A DNA stretch of 64,000 nt from NCBI RefSeq assembly GCF_022662015.1, contig NZ_JAKMCM010000003.1:124001-188000 (forward strand). Reading direction: 5' to 3'. Source of the DNA: Aestuariivivens sediminicola. GTDB lineage: Bacteria; Bacteroidota; Bacteroidia; Flavobacteriales; Flavobacteriaceae. Made by a program: the position numbers and the translations under genes. Shown here piece after piece: positions 12,235 through 36,823 of this stretch; position 1 is the first letter of the stretch, and the number at the start of each line of letters is the position of its first letter. The notes under the pieces are model-generated. The model was not told the origin of the DNA. It saw nothing but the letters and a program-made list of their open reading frames with translations, and did not search any database.

Positions 12235-12250
12235 ATGCAAACCTTTGCAT
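12235..12250 (-). promoter_or_regulatory. Operator A of the inositol/mannoside regulon, upstream of iolJ
   Basis: Perfect 16-bp palindrome ATGCAAACCTTTGCAT apart from its central CC, typical in size and symmetry of LacI-family operators. It lies in the 145-base gap between the lacI-type gene and iolJ. A TTnnTTTG box (on the minus strand, 12184-12191), a one-mismatch form of the Bacteroidota -7 element, follows 43 bases downstream, leaving about 40 bases to the iolJ ATG. Identical sites are at 13517 and 29621. Confidence 0.85.
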
Positions 12251-12285
12251 GAAATTTGTAATTTTTTTGAAGGTGTATTTTGGAA

Positions 12286-13311
12286 TTACATTTTTTTTGA
12301 AGACGCTCTTATGACAAGCTCAGGCTTAAAAATCTCCTCCCGGAGTTTCTGCTTTTCATCTTTATTGTCGATGCGCTTCAATAAGATTCGTGCAGAGAGC
12401 ATGCCCATACTGTAAACGGGTTGCCAAATCGTTGATAATCCCGGGGTAAAATAACTCGAGTGTGGTTCATCATCAAATCCTATAATAGATATTTCCTCAG
12501 GAATTTTCAGGTTTAACATTTTTGCTGCATGCATAGCCGAGATGGCGATGCAATCGTTCACCGCAAATATGGCGTCCGGTTGGTTTTCTAACTTGAGGAG
12601 TGCTTTTGCAGGTTTAATACCATCTTCATGTGTGAATCCCTTAACATGTTTAATGTATTTTTTGTCAATTGGAATATCATGCTGTTTCAGTGCATCGAGA
12701 TAACCGTTAAGTCGGTGTTTTGTTGTTGATAGATTTAATGGACCACCAATATGGGCGATACGTTTACAGCCGGATTTAACCAGGTAATCAACCGCCTGAA
12801 ATGCACCGTCGTAATCATCTACAAGAACTTTATCTACTTCTAATCCCGGACAATCCCTGTCGAAAACGACAATTGGGATACCCGTTTTTTTGAAGCGTCT
12901 CAAATGATCGAAATTCTTCGTAGAGGAGGATGGTGATACCAGAATACCATCAACACCTACGCGCATTAAATTTTCAAGGATTTCTACTTCTTCCGTATAC
13001 GATTCTTCGGATTGACAGATAATAATATTGTAGTTAGACGGTCGCAATATGTCCTGAATACCTGTAATTACTGATGAGAAAAAATGACTGGTTATCTCTG
13101 GGACCACTACCCCGATGATATGTGATTTTTTCTGTAAAAGGTTTAAAGCTAATAAGTTAGGATAGTAATTCAGTTTTTTTGCCGTTGATTTGACCTTCCT
13201 CTTGGTTCTTTGATTAATGGCCGGATGATCATTTAAGGCTCTTGAAACCGTTGAAATTGAAATATTCAATTTTGTGGCGATATCTTTTAAGGTTGCTCTG
13301 GGCTCGCTCAT
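12286..13311 (-). CDS. LacI-family transcriptional regulator of the inositol/mannoside locus
   Basis: A 341-residue regulator. Residues 5-40 form the LacI-type helix-turn-helix (LKDIATKLNISISTVSRALN, then a hinge-helix segment). The remainder is a periplasmic-binding-protein-like sugar sensor with GVVVPEI, GILVSPS, FDRDCPG, HIGGP and IGFDDEP segments. It lies directly upstream of the iol operon on the same strand. Five copies of a LacI-style palindrome lie within 24 kb, two of them flanking this gene, so it is the natural candidate to bind them. The inducer is unknown; inositol, a mannoside or a glycosyl-inositol are reasonable guesses. Confidence 0.88.
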   Translation of the reverse strand: MSEPRATLKDIATKLNISISTVSRALNDHPAINQRTKRKVKSTAKKLNYYPNLLALNLLQKKSHIIGVVVPEITSHFFSSVITGIQDILRPSNYNIIICQSEESYTEEVEILENLMRVGVDGILVSPSSSTKNFDHLRRFKKTGIPIVVFDRDCPGLEVDKVLVDDYDGAFQAVDYLVKSGCKRIAHIGGPLNLSTTKHRLNGYLDALKQHDIPIDKKYIKHVKGFTHEDGIKPAKALLKLENQPDAIFAVNDCIAISAMHAAKMLNLKIPEEISIIGFDDEPHSSYFTPGLSTIWQPVYSMGMLSARILLKRIDNKDEKQKLREEIFKPELVIRASSKKM

Positions 13312-13684
13312 ATGAATGCATTAGTGTTTATTAGTTCGAAAAGGAAGGCCTTTACAGGTGGCGTTATAAGTGGATTCATATATTTATATTTATTATAACA
13401 CATATGCTTTTAGATTCGATGGTTTAAGCTGGTATTAATGATATTTTCAAATTGAAAAAATGTACCGAAGTAACATTAAAACACTGTTTTTTTGTTCCCA
13501 TTAATGTTAAAACCAAATGCAAACCTTTGCATAAATATAAGCTAAATCTAAATAAAAATATTCATTGAATAATTGTAAGTTGCCAAATAAATAGGACAAA
13601 ATTTTCATCCGTTGCCTAATTGAACGACAAACGCCTCACAGAGAGAACGGGAGACCTTTTCAATAAATTGTAAAAAACAAAGAG
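13312..13684. other. Divergent intergenic region between lacI-type gene and first GH92
   Basis: This 373-base AT-rich gap holds operator B (13517-13532) and a second, unrelated 15-bp palindrome TTTTCAAATTGAAAA (13444-13458). The minus strand of 13448-13455 reads TCAATTTG, a one-mismatch -7 box that could serve the regulator gene. No small ORF with convincing features is seen. Confidence 0.5.
13517..13532 (+). promoter_or_regulatory. Operator B, upstream of the GH92 operon
   Basis: ATGCAAACCTTTGCAT, identical to operator A, 152 bases before the first GH92 start. A weak -7-like TAAGTTGC lies at 13576-13583, 43 bases downstream, the same spacing as at operators A and C. The site could also act on the divergent regulator gene. 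Confidence 0.85.
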
Positions 13685-15943
13685 ATGAAACTGTATAAAA
13701 TTATAATCCTGGTATACCTTGTTTCAGGTAATTTAAATACCTCTTGGGGTCAGGATACCGGGACCGTTGATTTCGTAAATCCGTTAATCGGGACATCCAC
13801 CCAAGGGTTTATGGAGGGAAGAGATGGTGGTGGCACGATGCCTTGTGTGGGTACCCCGTTCGCAATGACCAATTTTCTGGCGCAGACGCGTCAAAATAAA
13901 ATTAGCAGAATGCCCTATGCCTATGAAGATAACACCATACATGGTTTCATGGCAACACACCAGCCCACGGTCTGGATGGGCGATTATGGATATGTGTCCG
14001 TAATGCCCCAGACAGGAGAACTCAAATTGCTGCCCGAAGAACGCGCCATGTCATTTTCCCACGAGAATGAAATCGTGAGACCTTATTATTATGCTGTAGA
14101 CATGGGAGAAAAAAAGAGTGAAAGCATCAAAGGTGAAATTACCGCCTCATCGCGTTGCGGCATGTTTCAGTTCACATTTCCACAGTCTGAGGCATCTCAT
14201 ATCATCATCCAGGGAATTAACAATTCAGAAAATAAAAAGGACTTTCAAGGATATGTAAACATAGACTATGAAAATGGCGAGATTACAGGTTATAACCCGG
14301 AAAGGATGTCATCGCATTTGGGTCCTAAACTAAATAATTTCAAAGGCTATTTTATTATTCAGATCGATAAAAGTTTCGATTCTTTCGGTACCTGGAATTC
14401 CTTCAGAAATGAACCTCAGGTAAAAGTTGAAGGTACGGAGCAATATGGTGCCCGAATGGGGGCTTATGTAAGTTTTAAAACTGTTGAAGGTGAAAAGGTA
14501 AAGGTGAGGATAGCGACCTCTTTTATTAGTATTGAACAAGCAAGGATTAATTTGTCGAAGGAAATTTCAGGTTGGGATTTTGAAAAACTTAAGGAGACAA
14601 CCAGGGATATATGGGAAGAAAATTTGAATAGAATCGAGGTAGAAGGTGTATCAGATGATGAAAAGACAATCTTCTACACCGCCCTTTTTCATACCATGCT
14701 ATTTCCTCGGGAATTTTCCGAGTATGGAAAATATTATAGTCCTTTTGACGATAAGATCCATGAAGGAACTTCATACAATGATTACTCCTTATGGGATACC
14801 TTTAGGGCCTTGCATCCGCTGTTGCATTTTACGCATCCGGAAAGAGTGAGTCCCATGATTCAATCATTGCTGCAAATGTACGAGGAAGGCGGGTGGATGC
14901 CGAAATGGCCTAACCCAACCTATTCCAATATCATGACCGGCACCCATGCCGATGCCGTTATCGGTGATGCTTATGTAAAAGGCTTTAGAGACTACGACAT
15001 TGATCTGGCCTATGAAGCCATGAGAAAGAATGCCATGTTACCACCTCCTTGTGATACCGAGAAACATTGGGGCGATAGGGATGAAGGTACACAGTATGAG
15101 GCCAGGGGAGGCCTGACCTATTATCATGCTTTGGGTTATGTTGCTGCCGATAAGACCAGAGAATCTGTAACGCGTACGGTTGAATTTGGTATTGATGATT
15201 TTGCCATAGCACAGGTGGCCAAAGATTTGGGAAAGATGGATGATTATGATCGTTTGATGCATAACAGTAAGAACTACAAAAATTTGTTCAATCCTCAAAC
15301 AGGCTTTTTAAATGCGAAAAAATTTGACGGAACCTGGCATGAGAATGAACAGGAAGGCTTTACAGAAGGAGGGCGATGGACTTATTTATTTGGAGCCATG
15401 CACGATATAGAAGGCATGATTGCACTTTATGGCGGTAAAGAGAAATTTGCTGAAAAACTAAATGAGAATTTTGAAGGGAGACATTATCGACATGATAATG
15501 AACCTGGCCATCATTATGCCTATCTGTTTGATTATTGTGGGCAGCCCTGGAAAACTCAGGAACTTATTCGAAAACATACCTCTTCGGAAAATTTCAGAAA
15601 TCATCCCATCGGAATAAATGGAAATGATGATTGCGGACAAATGTCCGCCTGGTATGTATTTGGGGTCTTGGGCTTTTATCCGGTAACCCCGGCAACAGAT
15701 GTATTTGCTCTTGGGGCACCTCAATTTCCTGAGATTACCATGAATTTAGTCCACAACGGAAAACCGAAAACATTTAAAATTATAGCTCATGGACTTTCTG
15801 AAAGGAATATGTACGTCCAATCTGTGAAATTGGACAACACCGTTTTAAAAACACCTTTCATTAGTTATTCACAGATTATGGAAGGTAATACATTGGAATT
15901 TTATATGGGCAGAAAACCAAATAAGAATGCATTTTCGGAGTAA
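13685..15943 (+). CDS. GH92 alpha-mannosidase (exported), first copy
   Basis: A 752-residue protein with a signal peptide (about 1-22, ending TSWG before Gln). The GH92 fold starts with VDFVNPLIGTSTQG. The active-site region has DNEPGHH (Glu606, catalytic acid position of the family) and GNDDCGQMSAW (Asp648/649, base side). GH92 enzymes are Ca2+-dependent exo-alpha-mannosidases that invert configuration; linkage preference (alpha-1,2, 1,3, 1,4 or phosphomannose) cannot be read from these motifs. It is first in a run of seven plus-strand genes, with three other GH92 genes downstream. Confidence 0.92.
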   Translation: MKLYKIIILVYLVSGNLNTSWGQDTGTVDFVNPLIGTSTQGFMEGRDGGGTMPCVGTPFAMTNFLAQTRQNKISRMPYAYEDNTIHGFMATHQPTVWMGDYGYVSVMPQTGELKLLPEERAMSFSHENEIVRPYYYAVDMGEKKSESIKGEITASSRCGMFQFTFPQSEASHIIIQGINNSENKKDFQGYVNIDYENGEITGYNPERMSSHLGPKLNNFKGYFIIQIDKSFDSFGTWNSFRNEPQVKVEGTEQYGARMGAYVSFKTVEGEKVKVRIATSFISIEQARINLSKEISGWDFEKLKETTRDIWEENLNRIEVEGVSDDEKTIFYTALFHTMLFPREFSEYGKYYSPFDDKIHEGTSYNDYSLWDTFRALHPLLHFTHPERVSPMIQSLLQMYEEGGWMPKWPNPTYSNIMTGTHADAVIGDAYVKGFRDYDIDLAYEAMRKNAMLPPPCDTEKHWGDRDEGTQYEARGGLTYYHALGYVAADKTRESVTRTVEFGIDDFAIAQVAKDLGKMDDYDRLMHNSKNYKNLFNPQTGFLNAKKFDGTWHENEQEGFTEGGRWTYLFGAMHDIEGMIALYGGKEKFAEKLNENFEGRHYRHDNEPGHHYAYLFDYCGQPWKTQELIRKHTSSENFRNHPIGINGNDDCGQMSAWYVFGVLGFYPVTPATDVFALGAPQFPEITMNLVHNGKPKTFKIIAHGLSERNMYVQSVKLDNTVLKTPFISYSQIMEGNTLEFYMGRKPNKNAFSE

Positions 15944-16016
15944 CAGGGAGCGTTCATTCCCTTACCATTCTTTTTAATTCAGGTCATACCCTATAAAGCG
16001 CAAAAATGTAAAGTAT

Positions 16017-18317
16017 ATGAAGCAAAAAATAAGGTATTACATTTTGAGTTTCTGTTGTATTGCTGGAATAACGGTTTCCATGGCTCAGGCCAAGCAAATC
16101 GTAGATTATGTCAACCCCTTAATAGGGACGGCACCGTCGACAACCATAAGCGCTCTGAAACATGGTCTGCATAAAGAAAATAACGCCCAGGTGGTTCCTT
16201 TTGTTACCGCACCCTTTGGGATGACCAATTGGACACCACAAACCCAATCGACCGAAACCAAATGCCAGGCGCCTTATTATTATACGGATTCAATAATTAC
16301 CGGATTCCGCGGAAGTCATTGGTTAAGTGGTTCCTGTGTTCAGGATTATGGCAGTATGACGATTATGCCAATTTCAGGCCCCTTAAAGTGTTTGCCGGAT
16401 GAACGTGGATCGAAATTCTCCCATGCCTCTGAAGTTGCAAGGCCCTATAGCTATGAGGTCACTTTAAGTGACTATGACATTGATGTGGAAATGACCGCTA
16501 CAAAACGGGCTGGTTTAATAAAGTTCAGATTTAATACAGCTGGCGAAGGTCATATGGTGGTGCATCCCAACAGTGATGAAGGTGAAGGTTTTGTTAGAGT
16601 AGACACCACTAATAATGAAATTATAGGATATAACCCGGTTCACAGAATTTATCAGGGTTGGGGGGAGCAGGCAGGATTTAGTGGGTATTTTGTTGTGAGG
16701 TTCGACAAGGCAATAAAGGCATTTGGAACCTATCAGAATGATCATATTTACAATGGAAAAGCAGAAATATCAGATCAGGAAAACCTCGGTGCCTATATCT
16801 CATTTAATACAGTGCCCGATGAAACCATACATGCTTTCATAGGGATCTCGTTCACGAGCATTGAAAATGCCCGTAAAAATCTCGACGCAGAGGTTGGAAT
16901 GAAGACCATGAACGATGTCAAGTTACAATTGAAGCAGGAATGGGAACAGTTACTCTCAAAAATTAAGGTTGAAGGCCAAAGCGAGGATGCCAAGGTGGTG
17001 TTTTACACTGCTCTGTACCATAGTTATTTGCAACCACGTACGTTTAATGATGTTGATGGTGCTTATCCCGGATTTGCGGGAACCGCTACAACAAAAACAT
17101 TGCATGATACAGACTATTTTGTCGATTTTTCTATGTGGGATACCTTCAGGGCTTCTCACCCTCTTTTTAATTTATTAACGCCTTCCATAAGTGCTGATAT
17201 GGTGCGCAGCTTGTTCTCCAAAGCAGAGCAGGGAGGATGGCTACCCATATTCCCGTGTTGGAATAGTTATACATCGGCTATGATAGGAGATCATGTCATT
17301 GCAACTGTAGCGGATGCCTATGTTAAGGGCATTATTGATTTGAGTAGCGAACAGTATAAATACCTGCTCAAAAACGCCTTTGAATCTCCGTTTTCTTATA
17401 CGGATTATAAGAATGGCAAAGGAAGGAGAGCTCTTGAGCCCTATTTAAAGTACGGTTATATTCCATTGGAAGAGGAAGTAAAAGAATCCTTTCATACCAA
17501 TGAGCAGGTGTCCCGAACCCTGGAATATGCTTTCGACGATTTTGCTTTGAGTCAAATTGCGCAAAAAATGGGGGACAAAAAGCATTTTAAACTGCTAAGG
17601 GAACGTGCTTTAAATTACAGAAAGGTATACAGTCAAAAGGATTCAACTGTGAGAGGACGCTATGCCGACGGGACCTTTATTGACGATTTTGATAAATATA
17701 TCAGACAACCTTACATTACGGAAGGGACACCGTATCAATACACCTGGTTTGTACCTCACGATGTACAGGGATTAATGGATTTGATGGGAGGCCAAAAGGC
17801 ATTTAATGATAATTTAGATCGCTTTCATGCCAAAGGCCAATACTGGCATGGTAACGAACCTGGGCATCAAATTCCATTTTTGTACAACTATTCTGGTGAA
17901 CCATGGAAAACTCAAGAAGTGGTAAAACAAATCATGCAAACCGAATACAGTAATGATACTGGTGGTCTTAGTGGCAACGATGACGCCGGACAAATGTCAG
18001 CATGGTATGTGTTTGCAGCGATGGGATTTTATCCCGTTGCGCCCTCGGTTCCCGAATATGTGATCTCGGGACCCCATTTTGACAGGATAAGCATTGATCT
18101 CGAAAATGGGAAAACGCTCGTCATTAATGCTGAAGGAGCCTCTTCGGGACATAATTATATACAGCAGGTTAGGATTGATGGGAGTCCTTACGATAAGACA
18201 TTTTTAAGTCATTTCGATTTTCTGAAAGGTGGAGTAATAGATTTCGAAATGGGACCAGCACCAAATAAAACCTGGGGATCAAAATATAAAAGCAGACCAT
18301 TTTCAATGAGCAATTAG
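16017..18317 (+). CDS. GH92 alpha-mannosidase (exported), second copy
   Basis: A 766-residue protein with a signal peptide ending VSMAQA. The domain opens VDYVNPLIGTAPS. The catalytic pieces are GNEPGHQ (Glu614) and GNDDAGQMSAW (Asp655/656). It shares the plan of the preceding enzyme (same lysine-tryptophan-lysine-rich GEPWKTQ after the acid) but is clearly divergent in sequence, so the two probably cut different linkages. It follows copy 1 by 73 bases. Confidence 0.92.
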   Translation: MKQKIRYYILSFCCIAGITVSMAQAKQIVDYVNPLIGTAPSTTISALKHGLHKENNAQVVPFVTAPFGMTNWTPQTQSTETKCQAPYYYTDSIITGFRGSHWLSGSCVQDYGSMTIMPISGPLKCLPDERGSKFSHASEVARPYSYEVTLSDYDIDVEMTATKRAGLIKFRFNTAGEGHMVVHPNSDEGEGFVRVDTTNNEIIGYNPVHRIYQGWGEQAGFSGYFVVRFDKAIKAFGTYQNDHIYNGKAEISDQENLGAYISFNTVPDETIHAFIGISFTSIENARKNLDAEVGMKTMNDVKLQLKQEWEQLLSKIKVEGQSEDAKVVFYTALYHSYLQPRTFNDVDGAYPGFAGTATTKTLHDTDYFVDFSMWDTFRASHPLFNLLTPSISADMVRSLFSKAEQGGWLPIFPCWNSYTSAMIGDHVIATVADAYVKGIIDLSSEQYKYLLKNAFESPFSYTDYKNGKGRRALEPYLKYGYIPLEEEVKESFHTNEQVSRTLEYAFDDFALSQIAQKMGDKKHFKLLRERALNYRKVYSQKDSTVRGRYADGTFIDDFDKYIRQPYITEGTPYQYTWFVPHDVQGLMDLMGGQKAFNDNLDRFHAKGQYWHGNEPGHQIPFLYNYSGEPWKTQEVVKQIMQTEYSNDTGGLSGNDDAGQMSAWYVFAAMGFYPVAPSVPEYVISGPHFDRISIDLENGKTLVINAEGASSGHNYIQQVRIDGSPYDKTFLSHFDFLKGGVIDFEMGPAPNKTWGSKYKSRPFSMSN

Positions 18318-18338
18318 CCAGAAAAATAAAGGAAGATT

Positions 18339-19901
18339 ATGATAACAATTGACAAAATTTTGTTTTTATCCTTGGTTATACTTTGTACGAACTGTGAATC
18401 AGGAAAAGAACAAAGTAGTAGGAGCATTGAAACCGAGAAAGCAATACCTGTTGAAGGGGTTGATGTAACGGATTATGGGGTTTCAGGAGACGGAAAGACA
18501 TTAAATACAGAACACATTCAGGGGATTATCGATTCTCTGGAACAAGCAGGAGGTGGAACATTAATTTTCCCTAAAGGCACATTTTTATCGGGAAGCCTTG
18601 AAATTAAAAGCAACATAACCATATATCTTCGGGAAGAGGCTGTTTTAATGGGAACAGCAGATCCTTATCAATATCGAAAAGGCATTGGTAATTTGGCATT
18701 TTTATTTGGAGGTCATGCAGAAAATATTGCAATCCTGGGCAAGGGGTCCATTGATGGTCAAGGCCGAGCACTGGCTTTGGCAATTGATAGTCTTCATCAT
18801 ATCGGGGAAAGAATAGATCCTAATTACAATCTGAGACGAATGCGTCCTCATGAATCGTTTAGGCCCGAATTATTAAATTTAAAGCAATGTAAAAATATTA
18901 CTATTAATGGGGTTACTTTAAAAAATTCCGCAGGATGGCTTCAGACCATAGAGCAGTGTAACAAGGTGGTTTATGATTCAGTTAAAGTATACAACAGAGC
19001 CTATTGGAATAATGACGGTTTTGATATTGTAGATTGTCATAATGTCAGGATAACAAATTGTAATGTTGATGCCGCTGATGATGGAATTTGTTTAAAGTCC
19101 CATTCCGCCGATCATTTTAACGATCAGATTTATATTTCAAATTGTACCGTAAGGTCAAGTGCCAGTGCTATTAAGTTTGGAACAGCATCTCTTGGAGGAT
19201 TTAAGAACGTGACCATTGAGGATATTGAAGTTTTTGATACCTTCAGATCTGCAATAGCCATTGAATCTGTTGATGGGGGGGTCATTGAGAACATAAAGGT
19301 AAATAATGTAGTGGCCAAGAATACGGGCAATGCCATTTTCATTCGTTTAGGGCATCGTTCAGGAGAACGCCCCGGGAGTGTAAAGCACATTAATTTGAAG
19401 AATATAAATGTTGAGGTTCCCTTTGGACGCCCCGATATAAACTATGATTTGAGAGGGCCTGAAGTAGATTTTTTTCATAATCCGTTTCCCGCCTCGATTG
19501 CTGGTATTCCGGAATATCGTATTGAAGATGTTCATCTCGAAAACATTCAGATCTCATATCCGGGAAGGGCTACCAAGGGTATGGCCTATGTTCCTCTAAG
19601 TCGTTTAGAGCAGGTTCCCGAAAGAATAGAGAATTATCCCGAATTTTCAATGTTTGGAGAACTTCCTGCCTGGGGGTTTTATGTGCGACACGCCAAAGGC
19701 ATTACCTTTAAAAATATAAGCTTAACATTACAGGATTCGGATTATAGACCGGCGTTTGTTTTTGATGATGTGATTGATTTACAGATGGACAAAATTGAAC
19801 TGCCGATAGACAAGAAAGATCAGATTGTCTTAAAGGATGTTGATGATTCAAGCATATCATTAAATGAAGAGCTTGTAAAAACAATCTATAAACAACTGTA
19901 A
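18339..19901 (+). CDS. GH28 glycoside hydrolase (polygalacturonase family), lipoprotein
   Basis: A 520-residue protein with a lipoprotein signal (ILCTNC lipobox near residue 20), so probably surface or periplasmic and membrane-anchored. It has the right-handed beta-helix of GH28. The three catalytic carboxylates are visible as NNDGFD (Asp226) and ADDGICLKS (Asp247, Asp248). The usual GHG histidine motif of true polygalacturonases is not obvious; the equivalent stretch reads IKFGTAS, so activity on plain pectin is doubtful. Its seat within a mannosidase operon (21 and 11 bases from GH92 neighbours) suggests a uronic-acid or other side sugar on the same glycan. Confidence 0.85.
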   Translation: MITIDKILFLSLVILCTNCESGKEQSSRSIETEKAIPVEGVDVTDYGVSGDGKTLNTEHIQGIIDSLEQAGGGTLIFPKGTFLSGSLEIKSNITIYLREEAVLMGTADPYQYRKGIGNLAFLFGGHAENIAILGKGSIDGQGRALALAIDSLHHIGERIDPNYNLRRMRPHESFRPELLNLKQCKNITINGVTLKNSAGWLQTIEQCNKVVYDSVKVYNRAYWNNDGFDIVDCHNVRITNCNVDAADDGICLKSHSADHFNDQIYISNCTVRSSASAIKFGTASLGGFKNVTIEDIEVFDTFRSAIAIESVDGGVIENIKVNNVVAKNTGNAIFIRLGHRSGERPGSVKHINLKNINVEVPFGRPDINYDLRGPEVDFFHNPFPASIAGIPEYRIEDVHLENIQISYPGRATKGMAYVPLSRLEQVPERIENYPEFSMFGELPAWGFYVRHAKGITFKNISLTLQDSDYRPAFVFDDVIDLQMDKIELPIDKKDQIVLKDVDDSSISLNEELVKTIYKQL

Positions 19902-19912
19902 AAACATATTTA

Positions 19913-22213: not shown

Positions 22214-22333
22214 AAGAATGACAACTTCATGACAGTTACTGGAACGCAATTTTTATATGAAGTAAAACCAATTGATATGATGATTAGACCTCTGGATTTG
22301 AGTTTTGCTCGTTGCTTGTTTTTTCTTCAAGTC

Positions 22334-22350
22334 GTTCTAAAAGATAGAAC
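22334..22350. repeat. Inverted repeat in the gap before the second COG4299 gene
   Basis: GTTCTA-N5-TAGAAC with perfect 6-bp arms, followed by a short T run. It lies in the largest gap of the operon (174 bases), so it could be a weak attenuator or a local operator. No -7 element is convincing nearby. Confidence 0.35.
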
Positions 22351-22387
22351 TTTTACCAATGACGATACCAACTAAAATTATAAAATT

Positions 22388-25940: not shown

Positions 25941-26037
25941 ATCGGAGCATAGGGCGTCTGTTGTCGGGAGATGGATAAAGTCTCTGAAATGGTGCAGAAG
26001 AATTAATATTGTATTGGTCATATAAAAAGATAAGAAA

Positions 26038-27477
26038 ATGATATCAAGAAGAAAGTTTGTACAGGACAGTATATTGGCATCCACCGGACTTACCATTTTA
26101 GGAAGTTCCATAACGGGATATGCCTATAAATTGCAGGATTTTAAATCGAACCGCCCGCTGCCTGAAAATCGCACCTTTAACAGTAAGGCAGTGGAGGAGA
26201 TCATAATAAAAGTAAAACAAGGTATTAGAAATCCTGAATTGTCCTGGTTATTCGAAAACTGTTTTCCGAATACATTGGATACCACCGTAGATTTCGAAAT
26301 TAAAGATGGTAAACCCGATGCCTTCATTATTACCGGAGACATAGATGCCATGTGGTTGCGTGATTCTACGGCCCAGATTTGGCCTTACTTACCTTTGGTA
26401 AATTCAGATAAGAAATTAAAAGATTTGTTCAGGGGTCTAATTAATCGGCAAACCCAATGCATTTTATTGGATCCTTATGCCAATGCTTTTTTTAAAGATC
26501 TGACACGGATTTCCGAATGGAAAGATGATAAGCCAAGACAAAAACCCGGGGTTCATGAGCGTAAATGGGAAATAGATTCGCTGTGTTATGCCATTAGATT
26601 GGCTCATGGATATTACAAAGAAACCGGAGATCAATCAGTATTTGATAGTCAATGGGATAAGGCTATGCGGCTGGCGGTAGAGACCCTGAGAACAGAACAG
26701 CGTAAAAATGGAAGTACACCTTACTATTTTGAGCGTGTATCCAGTAACAGTACGGTTACGGCTTCATTTTACGGTAAGGGACGACCTGTGAAACCTGTAG
26801 GCCTTATAGCCTCCTCATTCCGTCCATCGGACGATGGCACCTTGTTCCCGTTTTTGATTCCGTCAAATTTGTTTGCAGTTGAGGCTCTGGCACAGCTGAG
26901 TGAAATTTATAAAGTGGTTTTCAGAGATACTGCATTTTCCGATACATGCGCTTCATTTTCAGAGGAGGTTTTGGAAGCTGTTAATACCTATGCCATTACA
27001 GAACATCTGGATTATGGTAATATATATGCTTACGAGGTCGATGGATTCGGTAACAAGGTCTTTATTGATGATCCTAATATCCCTTCCTTAATCGCAATGA
27101 AATATTTAATAGATGAAGCGTATTACGACAAAGCGGTTTATAATAATACCAGACGCTATCTTTTAAGCCATGACAATCCCTATTATTTCAAAGGAAAAGC
27201 AGGGGAAGGTCAGGGCGGTCCCCATGCGGGGATGGATACCATATGGCCTATGGGGATTATTTTAAGGGCCATGACATCAACCGATGATAAAGAAATCGTA
27301 TGGTGCATCCGCCAGTTAATGAATACCCATAACGGGTCCGGCTTTATGCATGAAACCTTTCATAAGGATGATGCCTCCAAATATTCACGAGATTGGTTTG
27401 CCTGGGCCAATACCTTGTTTGGGGAATTGATTCTAAAATTGTACAACGAAAAACCCCAGTTATTGCAATCGATATAA
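26038..27477 (+). CDS. GH125 exo-alpha-1,6-mannosidase (Tat-type signal)
   Basis: A 479-residue protein. The N-terminus SRRKFVQDS followed by a hydrophobic stretch is a twin-arginine export signal. GH125 (formerly DUF1237) marks are AMWLRDSTAQIWPYL (Asp109), GPHAGMDTIWPMG and the late GFMHETF (Glu439) with SRDWFAWANTLFGELI at the C-terminus. Family members remove terminal alpha-1,6-linked mannose with inversion and appear with GH92 in yeast-mannan loci. It is the last gene of the plus-strand operon and converges on the phosphatase gene with a 43-base gap. Confidence 0.92.
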   Translation: MISRRKFVQDSILASTGLTILGSSITGYAYKLQDFKSNRPLPENRTFNSKAVEEIIIKVKQGIRNPELSWLFENCFPNTLDTTVDFEIKDGKPDAFIITGDIDAMWLRDSTAQIWPYLPLVNSDKKLKDLFRGLINRQTQCILLDPYANAFFKDLTRISEWKDDKPRQKPGVHERKWEIDSLCYAIRLAHGYYKETGDQSVFDSQWDKAMRLAVETLRTEQRKNGSTPYYFERVSSNSTVTASFYGKGRPVKPVGLIASSFRPSDDGTLFPFLIPSNLFAVEALAQLSEIYKVVFRDTAFSDTCASFSEEVLEAVNTYAITEHLDYGNIYAYEVDGFGNKVFIDDPNIPSLIAMKYLIDEAYYDKAVYNNTRRYLLSHDNPYYFKGKAGEGQGGPHAGMDTIWPMGIILRAMTSTDDKEIVWCIRQLMNTHNGSGFMHETFHKDDASKYSRDWFAWANTLFGELILKLYNEKPQLLQSI

Positions 27478-27520: not shown

Positions 27521-29323
27521 CTAAGGCTGCAAATTCAAGACCTTAAGTATTTTGTGAAATACGTCGCTGTTTTCATAAACTCCTGTAAATTCCTGCGATT
27601 GGGGACCATAAGCAAATATAGGAACCATGGTTCCCGTGTGATCATCAGTTGTAAATGAGCCTTCAATCATATTGGTTTTAAGGTTTCCCTGCGGAATACT
27701 ATATCCCGAAGTTTCATGATCCGCCGTAACAATTACAAGTGTGTCTCCCGTCTGGTCGGCAAATTTGATAGCTTCAGTAATGGCTTTATCAAAATCAATA
27801 CCTTCGGTGACAATACCTGACACCTTATTTTCATGTCCGTAACTGTCTATCTTAGCAGCTTCCACCATTAAAAAGAAAGGCTTATTTTTTGAATGTAAAT
27901 AGGTCAATCCATTTCTCGTGGCATCCGCCAGTAGATTACCACGTCCTTCAAGAACGCTTGGAACATCATCTTCAGACATAAAGAAGCCGATCTTGTCACC
28001 AGTATGATCTGGCAGGTCATCCAGATGTTTTATGATGTTGAATCCCGACATGTCCCAATTATTCTTGAAGGTATTTGCCCCACCTCCAATAAATAAGGAC
28101 AGTTTACTCTTCATCAGATCTTTCACAATTGCGTTCGTATGATCACGATCTTTTTGATGCCCATAAAAGGATGCCGGCGTGGCACCTGTTATCTTATCTG
28201 TGGTAATACATCCCGAGAGAAATCCCTTTTCAGACAGAACCTCTGTAATATTTGCTATAGGAAGGCCATTACTATCCACTCCAATGGACCGATTATAGGT
28301 TTTGGAACCTGTTGCCAATGCTGTCCCGGCAGCGGCAGAATCGGTGGTAAAATCGTCGGCCGATTGGGTTTTTAAAAAGCCAATGCTCTTGAGCTGGGTT
28401 AATGTAAGCTGACCGCCATTAGCAAGGACCGAAGATGAAATTTGAGTTAACCCATTGCCATCTCCAATAAGCAATATAACCTGTTTTACAGGGGCTTCAG
28501 CCTTATCGCTTTCGTAAGTTGGGGTATATACCTCAGAGAATGTTTCATTATAATAAACCCGATGGTCTAATGTATTTAAGTAGACCGAGGCACCATAAGG
28601 GTTATCTGTATTTATAAAATCTACCCCCAGGTCACTCAGTGCTTTCCAGGCTGTTTTAGAGTCGGGAGTAGCCCAGAATCGGAATGGTTTGTTATAAGCG
28701 TGCGCTTTGTCGATCGCAGTCTTCGCCTTTACCGAATCTTCTGCCGTTAAGCGGCCTTTTCCATTCCACCCGGAAAACCTTTTAAAGTTTAAACTGATCA
28801 ATGCGATCTTGTCCCAAATCTTGTTGTTGTTTATGGGCTTAAGACTTTGATAGTCGAACTTTATAAAATCAGGATAATTTAACAGGTCATTCAACTTAGG
28901 CTGATTCCCGGAAATGACAAAGGAGACATTGGAATTGTTAACAAGGGCGGGGTAGCTCTCTAAAACGGCCATTAATTGCTTAAGTGTAGCATAGGCCTCC
29001 GACTTTATATCGATTAAAAATTGTATGGGATGTTGTTCTCCAAGTTTAAGTTCTAAAGCGCCTGAGAGGGGTTCAAAATAAAGATTTTCGATGGTCCGGT
29101 CAGGTATAATTTCAGATGCACCGTGGGTTACATAGAGGGTGTCTCGCTTTAGATAGATGTCAATTTCAATGGAATTCATCCCGTTAGAATAGGCATTCCA
29201 AAATGGAACAGTTTGGTGGTAATCATTGTGGGAATGAATTTTGATCAGACGGTTCTCCTGTGCTGCAGCCAAATGAATGGTTGCACAAAGCAGATAGGCC
29301 AGGAGGCGATACGATTTCAACAT
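27521..29323 (-). CDS. Exported two-domain protein: GDPD/PLC-like phosphodiesterase plus alkaline phosphatase
   Basis: The open frame begins at 29362, but the ATG at 29323 is preferred: it gives a clean signal peptide (MLKSYRLLAYLL, cut after LAAA) and lies downstream of the likely promoter box at 29341-29348. That makes 600 residues. Residues about 25-260 resemble glycerophosphodiester phosphodiesterase/PI-PLC barrels, with HSHND (His30, His32), EIDI (Glu53, Asp55) and VTHG (His67). Residues about 280-600 are an alkaline phosphatase, with LIGDGNG (Asp288), the nucleophile in TDSAAAGTA (Ser329) and TADHETSGY near the end. The pair would cut a phosphodiester and then remove the remaining phosphate, which suits glycerophosphoinositol or inositol-phosphate esters. 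Confidence 0.87.
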   Translation of the reverse strand: MLKSYRLLAYLLCATIHLAAAQENRLIKIHSHNDYHQTVPFWNAYSNGMNSIEIDIYLKRDTLYVTHGASEIIPDRTIENLYFEPLSGALELKLGEQHPIQFLIDIKSEAYATLKQLMAVLESYPALVNNSNVSFVISGNQPKLNDLLNYPDFIKFDYQSLKPINNNKIWDKIALISLNFKRFSGWNGKGRLTAEDSVKAKTAIDKAHAYNKPFRFWATPDSKTAWKALSDLGVDFINTDNPYGASVYLNTLDHRVYYNETFSEVYTPTYESDKAEAPVKQVILLIGDGNGLTQISSSVLANGGQLTLTQLKSIGFLKTQSADDFTTDSAAAGTALATGSKTYNRSIGVDSNGLPIANITEVLSEKGFLSGCITTDKITGATPASFYGHQKDRDHTNAIVKDLMKSKLSLFIGGGANTFKNNWDMSGFNIIKHLDDLPDHTGDKIGFFMSEDDVPSVLEGRGNLLADATRNGLTYLHSKNKPFFLMVEAAKIDSYGHENKVSGIVTEGIDFDKAITEAIKFADQTGDTLVIVTADHETSGYSIPQGNLKTNMIEGSFTTDDHTGTMVPIFAYGPQSQEFTGVYENSDVFHKILKVLNLQP

Positions 29324-29340
29324 GAGTTTTAGGTTTAAAA

Positions 29341-29348
29341 CAAAATAA
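29341..29348 (-). promoter_or_regulatory. -7 promoter box for the phosphodiesterase-phosphatase gene
   Basis: The minus strand reads TTATTTTG, one change from TAnnTTTG. It lies 42 bases downstream of operator D and 17 bases before the ATG at 29323, which argues against the upstream start at 29362. Confidence 0.45.
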
Positions 29349-29390
29349 CGATAAAAAAGCATGGATAGAAAAGTTAAAAGTGAAGATATT

Positions 29391-29406
29391 TTGCAAAGGT
29401 TTGCAT
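29391..29406 (-). promoter_or_regulatory. Operator D, upstream of the phosphodiesterase-phosphatase gene
   Basis: On the minus strand ATGCAAACCTTTGCAA, one mismatch at the last base from operators A-C. Confidence 0.8.
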
Positions 29407-29620: not shown

Positions 29621-29636
29621 ATGCAAACCTTTGCAT
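29621..29636 (+). promoter_or_regulatory. Operator C, upstream of susC
   Basis: ATGCAAACCTTTGCAT, identical to operators A and B, 82 bases before the susC ATG. A weak -7-like TTATTTCG is at 29680-29687, 43 bases downstream. Confidence 0.85.
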
Positions 29637-29718
29637 AGTGTTTTGAGCTGAAATAATTCAGAATATGACAATTTTATTGTTATTTCGTTATCACATAACT
29701 AATTATTAATAATCAAAT

Positions 29719-32682
29719 ATGAAAAAAATTACAACTTTAATGGTAATCCTATTGGTTGCAGTTTCCACACTTTCGTGGGCGCAGATCGAGATTACCGGTA
29801 CGGTAACGGATGAAACAGGAGTACCCTTACCGGGAGCTAATGTATTACTGGTTGGAACTTCCAGAGGTGTTGTTAGTGATTTCGATGGAAATTTTGCTAT
29901 TCAGGCCTCAGAGGGAGATGTCCTGGAGATATCTTTCGTCGGGATGGTTACACAGCAGGTAACAGTTGGCACTGAAACAAAACTAAACATTACATTACAA
30001 ACAGACGCTAGTGCCCTCGACGAGGTAGTTGTTGTGGGGTATGGAACTCAGAAAAGAAAAGACGTAACAGGAGCGATTGCTTCTATTAAAAGCGAAGGCT
30101 TCAATAGAGGGGTCGTAGCGAATGCCGGACAACTTTTACAAGGTAAGGTAGCCGGTGTTAATATTACGGCTGCCAGTGGTGAGCCGGGAGCTGCTCAGGA
30201 TGTGATCATACGAGGTGTAGGTAGTTTACGTTCAGGAACCACACCACTTTATGTTGTGGATGGTTTTGCTCTGGACAATACGGGTATTGGTGTGGCCACC
30301 AATCCATTAAACTTCATTAACCCTCAGGACATTGAAAGCATAGATATACTTAAAGATGCATCTGCTGCTGCTATCTATGGTGCGAGAGCAGCAAATGGGG
30401 TTGTTGTAATTACAACCAAAAAGGGAGTACGAGGTAGAACTCAAATGAATTTATCAGTATCTACGGCGTTTTCGAACTTATCGAAGGAAGTTGATGTCTT
30501 TGGTGCAGGTGAATTTAGAACACAGGTTAATGCCATTAATGGTGTTTTAAATGATGGCGGCGCATCTACCAATTGGCAAGATGAATTAACGAGAACAGCC
30601 GTTTCCAAGAATATAAATTTCTCTATGAGTGGAGGTACAGAAAACTCGTCATATGCAGCATCTCTTGGTGTCGATGATCAGGAAGGGATTTTTAGAAACA
30701 GTAACTTAAAGCGTTATTCAGGTCGTTTGAATTTAACACAGCGAGCGCTTAAAGACAAATTAAAGGTCGAATTCAATTTTACGGGAAGTAAAATAGACAA
30801 TACCAGGCCGGATACGAACGGCATCATAAATGATATGCTAAGTATGAACCCGACCGATCCTGTTTATACCAATGGGGAGCTTACTAGTGATTTGAGTAAT
30901 GATGTAGTCAACCCATTGGTCTCAGAACGACTCTATGGTGATTTTGCAGATAACTACAGGATTTTAGCGAATATTGCACCTTCCTTTGAAATTATTGAGG
31001 GATTGACCTATAGAATAAATGTCGGTGTTGATTATTCTTCAACGAGTAGGGATGTACAGGTAAGACCATATGCTACAGAGACCTTTATAACACTTGGGTC
31101 TTTGAATTCCTCTTCGACGATTAATCAAAACACTTTGGTAGAGAATACACTAACGTATAACTTTACTAAAGATCTGCATAACGTTACCGTTTTAGGTGGA
31201 CATTCCTATCAGGAGACGGAAGTAAGCCAAAAATTATTTCAATTATCGGGATTCCCTGATAATGGTGTTGAACCGAGATATCAAATTGAAACAGCGACTG
31301 AACCAACATTACAGTCGGCTTATGCCACCAGAAATGAGTTACAATCGTTCTTTGGACGTTTGAATTATGCTTACGATAGCAAATATTTATTGACAGCCAC
31401 CATTAGAGCGGATGGATCGTCCAAATTTGGTGGTAACAACAGGTACGGTTATTTCCCATCCTTTGCCCTGGGCTGGAATATTACGAATGAAGAGTTTATG
31501 GCCTCATCAGAGTCCATTAACAACCTTAAGCTAAGAGCAAGTTGGGGACAAACGGGTAGTCAGGAAATACCGGCAAAAATAACCAAGGCCAGTTACACGG
31601 AAAGTATTACCAATAATGACACTTACCCGCTATTATCAGGAGCAAACGATATAAGCGCCTATCCCTATGGAACAATTTATACGCGTTTGGCAAATCCTGA
31701 TATACAATGGGAAGTATCTACTCAGTTGAACATTGGTTTAGATTTTAGTTTATTCAATAGCAAATTATCGGGTACTTTAGATTACTTTAGTAAGGTTTCC
31801 GAGAATATTTTATTGGAAGTAACACCAACAGACCCGATCCAGCCGACTGACAGGTACTGGACCAATATTCCTGATATGGAAATTAAAAATAATGGGTTGG
31901 AGATGGCACTGGATTATCAGAGTGACCAAAGTGGCGATTTCTCCTATAACATAGGAGGTAACTTTTCTGTAATTAAGAATGAAGTTGTGAATTCGCCTTA
32001 CCAAATACTTACCACAGGAGCAGCGCAGGGTGCAGGTCAGACCGGTGCAACTATTAATGGCGTACTTAACGGTGAAGCTATTGGTGCATTTTATATGTTG
32101 GAATTTGATGGAATAGGCTCAGATGGATTAAACCAGTTCAGTGATAGAAATGGGGATGGCGAAATTTTGGATGACGACCGTTATGTTGCAGGGAATGCCT
32201 TACCGGATTTCATCTATGCCTTCTATGTCAACTTAAAGTATAAGAAATTTGATTTAGGATTAAATTTTAATGGTGTAAGCGGCAACAAGATTTACAACCA
32301 CGTGGCGATGTCACTTTTCAACAGAGGAAATTTGGCAAACTCATTTAATACAACGAGCCGGGCAATTGAGTTCCCGAATGAATCTCCATCCAACTCGAAC
32401 ACGGTTTCAGATCGTTATTTGGAGGACGGAGGCTATTTAAGATTAAATAACGCCACTTTAGGGTATAGTTTGGATCCCAATTTATTAGGTATAGGAGATA
32501 TGGTTAACAATATTCGTCTAACCATAACGGGACAAAATTTATTCACCATTTCAGATTATAGTGGATTTGATCCTGAACTTAATACGGGTATCGCAACAAA
32601 TGATATTCAAACCTATGGTATTGATTATTACAGTTACCCTAGGAATAGAACGGTACTATTTGGTCTAAACGTAGCATTTTAA
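29719..32682 (+). CDS. susC: SusC/RagA-family TonB-dependent outer-membrane transporter
   Basis: A 987-residue outer-membrane protein. It has a signal peptide ending TLSWA before Gln22. A carboxypeptidase-like regulatory domain follows (about 23-98, ITGTVTDETGVPLPGANV). The conserved ALDEVVVVGYGTQKRKDVTG leads into the plug domain, and a 22-strand barrel ends in an aromatic residue (NVAF). SusC pumps glycans or oligosaccharides across the outer membrane with SusD as the lid. This one belongs to the regulon with its own operator. Its cargo is inferred to be the mannosylated compound attacked by the neighbouring enzymes. Confidence 0.95.
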   Translation: MKKITTLMVILLVAVSTLSWAQIEITGTVTDETGVPLPGANVLLVGTSRGVVSDFDGNFAIQASEGDVLEISFVGMVTQQVTVGTETKLNITLQTDASALDEVVVVGYGTQKRKDVTGAIASIKSEGFNRGVVANAGQLLQGKVAGVNITAASGEPGAAQDVIIRGVGSLRSGTTPLYVVDGFALDNTGIGVATNPLNFINPQDIESIDILKDASAAAIYGARAANGVVVITTKKGVRGRTQMNLSVSTAFSNLSKEVDVFGAGEFRTQVNAINGVLNDGGASTNWQDELTRTAVSKNINFSMSGGTENSSYAASLGVDDQEGIFRNSNLKRYSGRLNLTQRALKDKLKVEFNFTGSKIDNTRPDTNGIINDMLSMNPTDPVYTNGELTSDLSNDVVNPLVSERLYGDFADNYRILANIAPSFEIIEGLTYRINVGVDYSSTSRDVQVRPYATETFITLGSLNSSSTINQNTLVENTLTYNFTKDLHNVTVLGGHSYQETEVSQKLFQLSGFPDNGVEPRYQIETATEPTLQSAYATRNELQSFFGRLNYAYDSKYLLTATIRADGSSKFGGNNRYGYFPSFALGWNITNEEFMASSESINNLKLRASWGQTGSQEIPAKITKASYTESITNNDTYPLLSGANDISAYPYGTIYTRLANPDIQWEVSTQLNIGLDFSLFNSKLSGTLDYFSKVSENILLEVTPTDPIQPTDRYWTNIPDMEIKNNGLEMALDYQSDQSGDFSYNIGGNFSVIKNEVVNSPYQILTTGAAQGAGQTGATINGVLNGEAIGAFYMLEFDGIGSDGLNQFSDRNGDGEILDDDRYVAGNALPDFIYAFYVNLKYKKFDLGLNFNGVSGNKIYNHVAMSLFNRGNLANSFNTTSRAIEFPNESPSNSNTVSDRYLEDGGYLRLNNATLGYSLDPNLLGIGDMVNNIRLTITGQNLFTISDYSGFDPELNTGIATNDIQTYGIDYYSYPRNRTVLFGLNVAF

Positions 32683-32700
32683 TTAAAAAAAATTTAGGAA

Positions 32701-34443
32701 ATGAAAAACAGAATAATATACACAATTCTTGCAGCCAGTTTACTCTTAAACTGGAACTGTACTGATTTAAATGAAGAAGTGCTTGACGAAAATCTGGAAG
32801 GAACCGGTCAAGCAGAAGCCATTACCGGAGCCATAGCACCGGCCTATGGTCAGGTATCCTGGGTGTGGAGGCATACCAACTATTTTGGTCTTCAGGAAAT
32901 TGCCAGTGATGAAGCCATTTTACCTTACCGTGGAGGAACCGACTGGTACGATGGTGGTAAATTTTTAGCAACGCACTCGCACACCATTACACCTACCAAC
33001 GATCTAGTGGGTAGCGCATGGAATGAGCTTACTAAAAACATATCGCGAACCTTGTCTGCAATTGAGGTGTTAACCCCTTTGGCGGAAAATGGAAATAATG
33101 AAGCAGCTGGCGCACTTTACGAAATGAAAGCACTAAGAGCCTATTTAAATATGCTCATGTTAGACAGCTGGGGACTTGTTTTTCAAAAGGAAACTTCTGC
33201 AGAAACTTCGGTAGTGCTTCGTGGTCAGGAAGCTATAGATTATATTGAAAGTGAGTTGTTATCTGTGGTCAATGTAATTAATACCAACAGGGCACCGGCA
33301 AGAATGTCACAGGCGACCGTATGGGGCCTATTGGCAAGATTGAATCTGAATGCGGCTGTTTACCGCGATCCTTATGGAACGCCTAACTTCACAGCAGCCG
33401 ATATGAACAATGTGATTCAATATACCGATAATATTATTAACTCGGGACAGTTTAGCATGTCTCCCGAATATTTTGATTTGTTCGATGATAGTAACAATAC
33501 AAACCCGGAATTAATTTTTGCTTTAGATCAACGCGGCGTATTGCGACGAGAACACAGTCGATGGACCTATTGGTCATTACCCGGTTCGCTGTGGGGTAGA
33601 CCTGAGTTTCCAAGTTCTGATGGAACAGATGGCCCTGGTATGACATCGGATTTCTATCAAACATGGGTGGATGCCTATGGTTCTACAGATCCTGCGGATG
33701 CCGATCCCAGGTTTTACAAGAAGAACCAACAAATACCACCAGAGCTTGAAGATTTAACTGGTTTATCACCTTTAAATGATGCGGATCACTATTACTGTAC
33801 ATCTGCTGAGGATTATGAATTTGACAGGGGTATCATTCGTGGTGTGCCATGGGGACCAAGAAAAGACCCGAACGGTGCATTTTACACTTGCGATGAAGGT
33901 TTTAGAATTTACCCTGTGAAACAGATAAAAGGTAATGGCCCGGATAAAAATGTGGCCTATGTGAATTTGACGCTGCAAATTGATTTTACCAATGAAGGAA
34001 GAGCACATCACACAGGTTATCGTTTTTCGAAATACGCTTTTAGCCGTACATCACCAAACGCCAATAACTTTAGTAGTATAGATATCGTATTAATGCGTTA
34101 CGCAGAAATATATTTGATGCGTGCTGAAGCAAAATTACGTAATGGAGATGCTGCAGGGGCTTTAGCCGATGTGAATTTTGTAAGAACATCGAGAAATGCA
34201 AGATCGCCTATACCAGCAGCACTTACATCAGTTAATCTGGATGTACTATATAGAGAACTTGGTTTCGAATTCTATTGGGAAGGTCTTAGACGAACGAATC
34301 AAATTCGTTTTGGTCACTATGAGGATCCATGGACTGAAAAATCGGATGCTGATGCTAACAACAGATTGTTTCCAATTCCGCAGTCCGCTATCGATGGAGC
34401 TTCGAATACCCCAGGTTATCTAGAACAAAATAGAGGATATTAA
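32701..34443 (+). CDS. susD: SusD/RagB-family surface glycan-binding lipoprotein
   Basis: A 580-residue lipoprotein; the lipobox is LNWNC near residue 20. The N-terminal part is SusD-like with TPR helices (ALYEMKALRAYLNMLMLDSWG). The C-terminal RagB/SusD domain includes DIVLMRYAEIYLMRAEAKLRNGD, YRELGFEFYWEGLRRTNQIRF and the FPIPQSAID ending typical of the family. It binds substrate over the SusC barrel. It follows susC by 18 bases, and a strong terminator follows it. Confidence 0.95.
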   Translation: MKNRIIYTILAASLLLNWNCTDLNEEVLDENLEGTGQAEAITGAIAPAYGQVSWVWRHTNYFGLQEIASDEAILPYRGGTDWYDGGKFLATHSHTITPTNDLVGSAWNELTKNISRTLSAIEVLTPLAENGNNEAAGALYEMKALRAYLNMLMLDSWGLVFQKETSAETSVVLRGQEAIDYIESELLSVVNVINTNRAPARMSQATVWGLLARLNLNAAVYRDPYGTPNFTAADMNNVIQYTDNIINSGQFSMSPEYFDLFDDSNNTNPELIFALDQRGVLRREHSRWTYWSLPGSLWGRPEFPSSDGTDGPGMTSDFYQTWVDAYGSTDPADADPRFYKKNQQIPPELEDLTGLSPLNDADHYYCTSAEDYEFDRGIIRGVPWGPRKDPNGAFYTCDEGFRIYPVKQIKGNGPDKNVAYVNLTLQIDFTNEGRAHHTGYRFSKYAFSRTSPNANNFSSIDIVLMRYAEIYLMRAEAKLRNGDAAGALADVNFVRTSRNARSPIPAALTSVNLDVLYRELGFEFYWEGLRRTNQIRFGHYEDPWTEKSDADANNRLFPIPQSAIDGASNTPGYLEQNRGY

Positions 34444-36738: not shown

Positions 36739-36768
36739 GTAATAAAAGATTGATTTTTAAGGTAATGA

Positions 36769-36776
36769 CAAAGATA
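36769..36776 (-). promoter_or_regulatory. -7 promoter box for the metallophosphoesterase
   Basis: The minus strand reads TATCTTTG, a perfect TAnnTTTG match, 30 bases before the ATG and 31 bases downstream of operator E. Confidence 0.65.
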
Positions 36777-36807
36777 GTGGTAAAGACATGGAAATTACAG
36801 GTGTATC

Positions 36808-36823
36808 ATGCAAAGGTTTGCAA
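36808..36823 (-). promoter_or_regulatory. Operator E, upstream of the metallophosphoesterase
   Basis: On the minus strand TTGCAAACCTTTGCAT, one mismatch at the first base from the perfect palindrome. It lies 69 bases before the start codon. Confidence 0.8.

Follow-up and report, generated by a model that had tools for sequence, protein, structure and literature searches.

What joins inositol catabolism, α-mannosidases, phosphoester hydrolases, and a SusCD importer is the question raised by a 64,000-nucleotide stretch of Aestuariivivens sediminicola (contig NZ_JAKMCM010000003.1, positions 124,001 to 188,000; the whole stretch is called the window below). A preliminary description of the window had noticed a 16-bp palindrome before five transcription units: the inositol (iol) operon, an operon of glycoside hydrolase (GH) families 92 and 125, a phosphodiesterase-phosphatase gene (PDE-AP), susCD, and a metallophosphoesterase gene (MPE). 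Shared control of the five units is well supported, and the common operator is probably the docking site of one LacI-type regulator. With a probability of roughly 0.6, the locus may be read as a local LacI-type regulon scavenging inositol-containing phospho(glyco)conjugates.

The shared operator and its regulator

A search of both strands of the window finds ATGCAAACCTTTGCAT perfectly at three places (beginning at 12235, 13517, and 29621) and with one end mismatch at two more (29391 and 36808), exactly as first described. All five sites are intergenic and upstream of genes, at 94, 152, 28, 82, and 69 bp from the called starts in coordinate order. The word is laid out as 7+2+7, with arms ATGCAAA and TTTGCAT around a CC; since the CC/GG centre is not self-complementary, the supposed palindrome is an inverted repeat of imperfect symmetry. 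It belongs to the even inverted repeats (16-22 bp) of LacI-family operators, in the window as well as at 76 distinct sites in 29 genomes. At up to three mismatches the window holds 11 matches (each palindrome being counted on both strands), against 1.30 on average and at most 6 in 100 shuffles; the only further place, 9010-9025 within iolD, has three mismatches. The genome-wide scan that had been proposed as a check (3,654,899 bases in 21 contigs, arms with a free centre, up to two mismatches) gives 27 places. Exactly five of them have zero or one mismatch, all in the window and none elsewhere in the 3.65 Mb, and the other 22 all have two mismatches, about the background of the reversed pattern (24 places). 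The signal thus stops sharply at the five window sites, and the many genome-wide copies that had been named as a refuting outcome are absent.

The sites at 29391 and 29621 share a single divergent intergenic region, 230 bp apart. From the 13517 site it is 205 bp to lacI and 152 bp to the start of GH92; on the lacI side, the consensus search of the window promoters found no -7 box at the usual spacing. In many relatives, lacI is placed after susCD. The distance of 28 bp belongs to the called start of PDE-AP and becomes 67 bp with Met14 as the start. The called start is probably too far upstream by 39 bases: Met14 seems likelier because a signal-peptide-like stretch begins there and because this start leaves the -7 element outside the gene.

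The LacI-family protein encoded between the first two sites (12286-13311) very probably binds these sites, as the preliminary description had supposed. It matches PF00356 with 50.5 bits (cut-off 27) and PF13377 with 105.8 bits. A search of genome contigs with the protein gave 57 loci (loci and genomes carry L and G numbers below), and in a tree of 72 LacI proteins it falls into a clade of 41 rows (support 100/100) that spans Flavobacteriaceae to Cyclobacteriaceae and a Cytophagales metagenome-assembled genome (MAG); L083, L085-L101, and the family paralogs lie outside. The pattern RTGCAAASSTTTGCAY is present in 27 of the 28 genomes searched, which stand behind 28 of the 57 loci, and its reversed control in none; the sole genome without it, G150, belongs to L083, a locus that the clade does not include. 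Of 397 family genomes drawn evenly, 11 have an ortholog (E ≤1e-110), and every one of these carries the palindrome (34 sites), against 17 of the 386 genomes without an ortholog (19 sites).

The centres of these two sets are 28 CC/GG and six CG in the ortholog genomes, and four CC/GG, 12 CG, and three GC in the others. The 12 CG-centred sites of the latter lie in ten genomes; one site of each was checked, and all ten are intergenic, with another LacI-type helix-turn-helix (HTH) within the 3-kb piece at nine of them (the exception being L190); two of the ten loci come from one genus (G257, G411). Six of the seven remaining sites lie inside open reading frames (ORFs; three CC/GG, three GC), while L191 (CC/GG), near a contig end, is unexplained, as is L190. 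A 120-genome draw contains IolB in nine genomes: the five with a LacI ortholog all have sites (14), and the four without have none, three of the four being less than 90% complete. The 28-genome set overlaps in part with the two family draws (by coordinates, G018/G141, G112/G124, and G020/G143), and the samples are therefore not independent. Two of the 11 ortholog genomes (G322, G358) contain two lacI copies of this kind; at L166 (G142; the same places as G322:C19) the second is read as two ORFs next to CG-centred sites, and one in-frame stop is present at its place in G322.

Placement of the operator upstream of the promoter

What is new beyond the shared site is the fixed placement of the operator relative to the promoter. 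In Flavobacterium psychrophilum, the -7 box TAnnTTTG spans -12 to -5, and a variant, SM5, reads TAnnTTGY (PMC9723704). An element like TATTGTTATTTG recurs downstream of the operators: its best match begins 37-39 nt past the site in 21 of 34 iolJ rows and at 38 nt (counted from 0) in 10 of 27 susC rows, many of these rows being related to each other, and this spacing holds while the distance from the site to the ATG varies. A first profile trained on iolJ promoters gave 13 of 68 hits in a wrong window of 40-44 (shuffles: mean 4.1, max 9) and 19 of 48 non-redundant hits in its training range of 37-41 (mean 2.7, max 8); it was replaced by the published consensus, and a sigma-70 promoter scanner was set aside because Bacteroidota promoters differ.

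With the consensus (up to one mismatch; offsets give the last base after the site), 21 matches fell into the bin +36-41, 12 into +48-53, and 2-9 elsewhere at the first look. A match at +39-41 or +50-51 is found in 32 of 51 promoters less than 75% alike (500 dinucleotide shuffles: mean 4.9, max 13), in 23 of 35 less than 60% alike (mean 3.1, max 8), and in 13 of 22 less than 50% alike (mean 1.7, max 8); the MPE promoters number seven or six, depending on whether redundancy is removed within or across groups. Sliding the offsets by one leaves 14 or 16, and by two, five or seven; among 30 letter permutations TAnnTTTG ranks first, the runner-up reaching 15 of 35. As the G of the box is at -5, the site centre lies near -52.5 or -63, the two spacings being about one helical turn apart. 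Four of the five window promoters (MPE, iolJ, PDE-AP, and GH92a) fit with the published box. The PDE-AP promoter has a second one-mismatch match ending at +22, and the susCD promoter has no match at up to one mismatch.

Related LacI proteins with CG-centred operators differ in this respect. For LacI paralogs with CG-centred palindromes, 33 promoters were compared: only two match at the offsets above (L038 at +39, L021 at +50), and 15 of the -7 matches fall at +18-29. A group that likewise has a LacI HTH and the half site ATGCAAA, with one varying end letter (L024/L195, L131, L176, L177, L181, L183, L184, L186), differs in its CG centre, its hinge (IASSFR or IAASFR), and an operator lying over the promoter at about -37, before a divergent gene: nine of the ten CG loci, L187 excepted, have a -7 match at +24/25, which puts the site over the -33 region. 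A fixed upstream placement general to flavobacterial LacI proteins is rejected by these two sets. In the hinge, the 41 orthologs have Leu after the Leu/Phe that is presumed to be the intercalating residue of the family, and the paralogs mostly have Arg or Lys there. The idea that this Leu alone sets the CC/GG centre was dropped, as CG-using orthologs (L074, L075, L140, L149) keep it and as L083 and L085, outside the clade, also carry it.

Such a constant position ahead of the promoter speaks against simple roadblock repression in the manner of LacI. Activation by the regulator is moderately favoured by the fixed place upstream of polymerase, the two spacings one helical turn apart, the -7 boxes that are often off consensus, and the different placement in near relatives. 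In the mechanism proposed here, the IolR-like LacI protein would bind the operator before the five units, and a signal from the inositol pathway (possibly myo-inositol or an iol intermediate) would alter its activity. Direct activation would proceed from upstream of RNA polymerase, with the operator centred near -52 or -63, so that the SusCD importer, the presumably exported hydrolases (PDE-AP, MPE, the EEP enzyme introduced below, and the GH92, GH125, and GH28 proteins), and the iol pathway of the cytosol would be switched on jointly.

Gene content, substrate, and alternative readings

The gene content was read in 29 genomes (the 27 site-bearing ones of the 28-genome search, plus G000 and G006). 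The 77 rows of exact sites contain one double (L142:18478 = L069:2018), and the 76 distinct sites have CC/GG (68) or CG (8) at their centre; the pattern demanded an S-S centre, and a free-centre search with perfect arms returned only CC, GG, or CG. Site-led units contain iol genes in 27 of the 29 genomes, SusC in 17, PDE-AP in 14, GH92 in nine, MPE in six, and an enzyme of the endonuclease/exonuclease/phosphatase family (EEP) in three. These counts are lower bounds, since they cover the fetched stretches and exact RTGCAAASSTTTGCAY only, which places the window MPE site outside them; iol rises to 28 with L071:11060, where the script overcalled the iolJ start. As in an IolR-type regulon, the operator before iol is conserved together with the regulator. 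In Echinicola (L080), an SSF symporter, MPE, and SusCD stand at sites instead of iol. The ORFs of relatives were called by a script with a simple choice of starts (too far upstream in L071, L147, and L162; 618 bp from the site in L153), and their labels are best BLAST matches to the window proteins, some of them weak (GH92b, 27-28%).

Inositol is thus nearly constant, phosphoesterases and SusCD are frequent, and mannosidases are a variable extension, since GH92 is site-led in only nine genomes. The link between inositol catabolism, mannosidases, phosphoester hydrolases, and SusCD that had been proposed on the basis of shared control is supported by the specificity and conservation of the site; the name first given, inositol-mannoside-phosphate regulon, is supported in part: its inositol stands, the mannoside does not stand as a constant part, and the substrate it implies is a prediction.

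Among the encoded proteins (Table 1), IolB, IolC, IolD, and IolG pass the NCBIfam cut-offs (TIGR04378, TIGR04382, TIGR04377, TIGR04380), and IolE, completing the myo-inositol catabolic cluster, reaches 207.9 bits against TIGR04379, under the cut-off of 290. SusC (TIGR04056, 804 bits) and the adjacent SusD (PF07980) with GH92 and GH125 neighbours form a locus of the polysaccharide-utilisation type. The two NagX-like membrane proteins score 137 and 173 with the NagX equivalog model, well short of its cut-off of 480; the one at 22388-23518 matches HGSNAT structures at 1.5e-24. Among the fetched stretches, it has a counterpart only in Aestuariivivens sediminis L147, and none is labelled for the other (1165-2259), the A. 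sediminis stretch L046 stopping short of that place. Among structures of named function, a mannosyl-6-phosphatase (4c1r, 1.3e-55) is closest to the EEP enzyme; it is outscored by 3g6s and 3mpr, which have no function assigned. For the alkaline phosphatase domain of PDE-AP the TAB5 enzyme is nearest, and the best 50 of 1029 structural matches of the predicted PDE-AP fold (mean pLDDT 68) are alkaline phosphatases; its N-terminal half is a putative phosphodiesterase by one short GDPD_2 Pfam match. The MPE model (mean pLDDT 74.6) resembles Lmo2642, SMPDL3A/B, and a glycerophosphodiesterase, while a PDB sequence search with the protein returned no match. Within the mannosidase operon, 18339-19901 encodes a GH28-family protein; in Maribacter sp. 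4G9 (L143:4849-6486), a one-mismatch site immediately precedes GH28, which lies opposite the metallophosphoesterase. Beyond the regulon, 40318-43000 holds BT4734-like/PriCT_1 and DUF5131 genes, possibly mobile-element remnants, followed by efflux genes, where 44034-48368 encodes a single chain of 1444 residues in which an RND pump of the AcrB/AcrD/AcrF type and an outer membrane efflux (OEP) domain are joined.

Table 1 Coordinates of operators, -7-like boxes, and genes in the window
Feature	Position	Strand	Remarks
iol operon: iolJ, iolB, iolC, iolD, SSF symporter, iolA, iolE, iolG, HGSNAT/NagX-like, EEP	271-12140	-	
EEP-family enzyme of iol operon	271-1128	-	
HGSNAT/NagX-like membrane protein of iol operon	1165-2259	-	
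-7-like box of iol, TTGTTTTG	12184-12191	-	ends +51 after operator; 1 mismatch to TAnnTTTG
iol operon operator	12235-12250	-	perfect 16-mer; CC centre on + strand, read as GG along the genes
LacI-family regulator, 341 aa	12286-13311	-	HTH PF00356 + Peripla_BP_3; proposed binder
Operator between divergent lacI and GH92 operon	13517-13532	+	perfect 16-mer
-7-like box of GH92 operon, TAAGTTGC	13576-13583	+	ends +51; SM5 variant; 2 mismatches to TAnnTTTG
GH92-GH92-GH28-GH92-HGSNAT/NagX-like-GH92-GH125 operon	13685-27477	+	
HGSNAT/NagX-like membrane protein of GH92 operon	22388-23518	+	
PDE-AP	27521-29362	-	residues 226-256 match GDPD_2; alkaline phosphatase domain begins at about 292
-7-like box of PDE-AP, TTATTTTG	29341-29348	-	ends +50; 1 mismatch; inside called ORF
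PDE-AP operator	29391-29406	-	one end mismatch
susCD operator	29621-29636	+	perfect 16-mer
Weak -7-like box of susCD, TTATTTCG	29680-29687	+	ends +51; 2 mismatches, by eye; within recurrent TTTTATTGTTATTTC
susCD	29719-34443	+	SusC 29719-32682; SusD 32701-34443
MPE, 645 aa	34801-36738	-	lipoprotein-like N-terminus
Exact -7 box of MPE, TATCTTTG	36769-36776	-	ends +39 after operator
MPE operator	36808-36823	-	one end mismatch

The substrate might be head groups of mannose-carrying inositol phosphates, similar to those of glycosylphosphatidylinositol (GPI) or glycosyl inositol phosphorylceramide (GIPC). This tentative proposal, given somewhat less than even chances, draws on the known glycan structures of GPI and GIPC, into which the mannosidases, the glucosamine N-acetyltransferase-like protein, the phosphodiesterases and phosphatases, the importer, and iol would all fit: HGSNAT acts on glucosamine, and PGAP5-type enzymes act on GPI. 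GIPC can also bear uronic acid, and a uronic-acid-bearing GIPC would fit better with GH28, which the GPI glycan leaves unexplained. Enzymes of phosphoesters and inositol lipids recur in the site-led or neighbouring units of relatives. An Allomuricauda MAG (L053) has a site-led susCD operon with an esterase and a PI-PLC-C1-like protein (5.7e-5, below the Pfam cut-off); Flagellimonas amoyensis (L054) has a PI-PLC-like protein 62% identical to the latter, and a PDB sequence search with this kind of protein gave no match. ENPP-type phosphodiesterases with PA14 (L139, L072) and HAD phosphatases (L139, L157) are found in site-led or adjoining units, and three consecutive EEP enzymes follow a SusCD pair in L153. 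In L162, where the palindrome is at the called 5' end of the SusC gene, a PIG-L-type deacetylase (L162:3774-4661; closest to the NCBIfam model BshB1, whose cut-off it does not reach) and an MFS transporter follow it on the same strand.

A more ambitious form of the proposal is doubtful: an activator of the LacI family, marked by the CC/GG centre, the hinge Leu, and the helix-phased -52/-63 placement, would command a complete pathway for glycosyl-inositol-phosphate head groups of the GPI or GIPC kind. Import by SusCD, trimming of mannose by GH92 and GH125, and N-acetylation of the core glucosamine by the HGSNAT-like proteins would be followed by removal of the phosphodiester and phosphate groups and by iol catabolism of the freed inositol.

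Several points weigh against the reading preferred here. The offsets +39-41 and +50-51 were picked after the first look, and the shuffle null takes them as given; 12 of the 35 promoters are without a -7 box at those offsets, and the susC box of the window has two mismatches. The matches of the CG paralogs also gather, more loosely, at +48-65 (22, against the 15 at +18-29). L176 and L177 match at +50/51 on their lacI side as well, and L187 at +51; because these CG loci and paralogs match there, the +50/51 offset does not by itself set the regulon apart. Repression from upstream sites is also possible in the LacI family, as with GalR at gal, and GH92 is too rarely site-led for mannose to be constant. 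An appreciable chance, smaller than that of activation, goes to the same regulon under an ordinary LacI repressor that inositol or an iol intermediate would release, with the upstream site blocking an activator or looping between paired sites (e.g., 29391 and 29621). Many LacI-family factors are called repressors in PMC4052901 ("repress" 29 times, "activat" five times in the main text), and several intergenic regions hold pairs of sites spaced by 160-325 bp (230 bp for the window pair), an arrangement that looping repressors may use; many loci, however, hold a single site before iol, the centre lies near -52 or -63 in the 23 promoters mentioned, and relatives with a CG and a nearly identical word have it at about -37.

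As to the nutrient, it is a credible if less favoured alternative that the regulon is directed at free inositol, inositol phosphates, or phosphatidylinositol-type lipids, and that the mannosidases were recruited locally for a separate mannan. The ranking of gene content, with iol first, SusC and PDE-AP next, and GH92 in only nine genomes, agrees with it, as do the weakly PI-PLC-like protein and esterase of L053 and the relative of the former in F. amoyensis; yet GH92a recurs in site-led operons of other genera, either as MPE-GH92a(-EEP) or as GH92a operons (L151, L154, L158, L163), and the EEP enzyme has a mannosyl-6-phosphatase as its closest structure of named function. Quite improbable is another DNA-binding protein as the reader of the palindrome. 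Binding by the LacI protein is itself a prediction, and G322 and G358 have their second lacI copy; the co-occurrence with the ortholog and the use of the half site ATGCAAA beside other LacI-type genes with CG operators speak for the LacI protein. Least probable by far, and close to negligible, is an origin of the sites as copies of one duplicated promoter segment or as functionless chance words. A longer element, TTTATTGTTATTTG, is common to several promoters, but the sites are retained from Flavobacteriaceae to Cyclobacteriaceae and the Cytophagales MAG, and the spacing persists among promoters whose likeness over 60 bases is below 60%; chance is rejected by the window shuffles, which are greatly surpassed, by the genome scan, by the empty reversed control, and by the co-occurrence in family genomes.

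Comparison with known systems

In a local regulon of this kind, control as well as neighbourhood links four enzyme classes to one nutrient across the 29 genomes read, which makes the substrate prediction testable. The two LacI groups have nearly identical operators, which lie over the promoter in the first and a set distance upstream of it in the second, and thus constitute a natural experiment on how a family of repressors can give rise to an activator. Among the matches listed in literature searches, no title or abstract start describes such a regulon for inositol, LacI, SusC, and GH92 in Bacteroidetes, and bacterial use of GPI or glycosyl-inositol-phosphate lipids is absent from their titles and abstracts. 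Clusters of iol genes occur in 2% of 810 Flavobacteriaceae species and in no Bacteroidaceae (PMC9430895).

LacI-type IolR regulators of iol operons form seven non-orthologous groups (PMC4052901). They share with the window regulator the LacI family, an even 16-bp inverted-repeat operator, and iol as the main target; the window regulon differs by the addition of SusCD, phosphoesterases, and mannosidases, by a site upstream of the promoter, and by a centre that is mostly CC/GG instead of CG. The central CG pair is found for 1173 of 1251 transcription factors with even palindromes, 49 having another pair and 29 a degenerate one (PMC4052901), so that CG is usual, not required, and CC/GG, at 68 of the 76 sites, is a minority form. 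Cra (FruR) and PckR are LacI-family regulators that also activate, as known or as predicted from site position (PMC4052901), the mode of PckR resting, as here, on the latter; they are global regulators of central metabolism in Proteobacteria, whereas the window would encode a local catabolic regulon in Bacteroidota.

The α-mannan loci of Bacteroides and the marine GH76/GH92 clusters likewise combine SusCD, GH92, GH125, and an EEP phosphatase akin to mannosyl-6-phosphatase. Neither GH76 nor GH99 was found among 60 proteins of the window and its relatives scanned with Pfam, and here iol catabolism and the phosphodiesterase-phosphatase stand under one operator with the mannosidases. The PUS loci of Flavobacterium johnsoniae, in which a SusCD-like importer stands beside phosphoesterases for organic phosphorus, answer to phosphate depletion (PMC8115612); in the window, the operator ties importer and phosphoesterases to iol instead.

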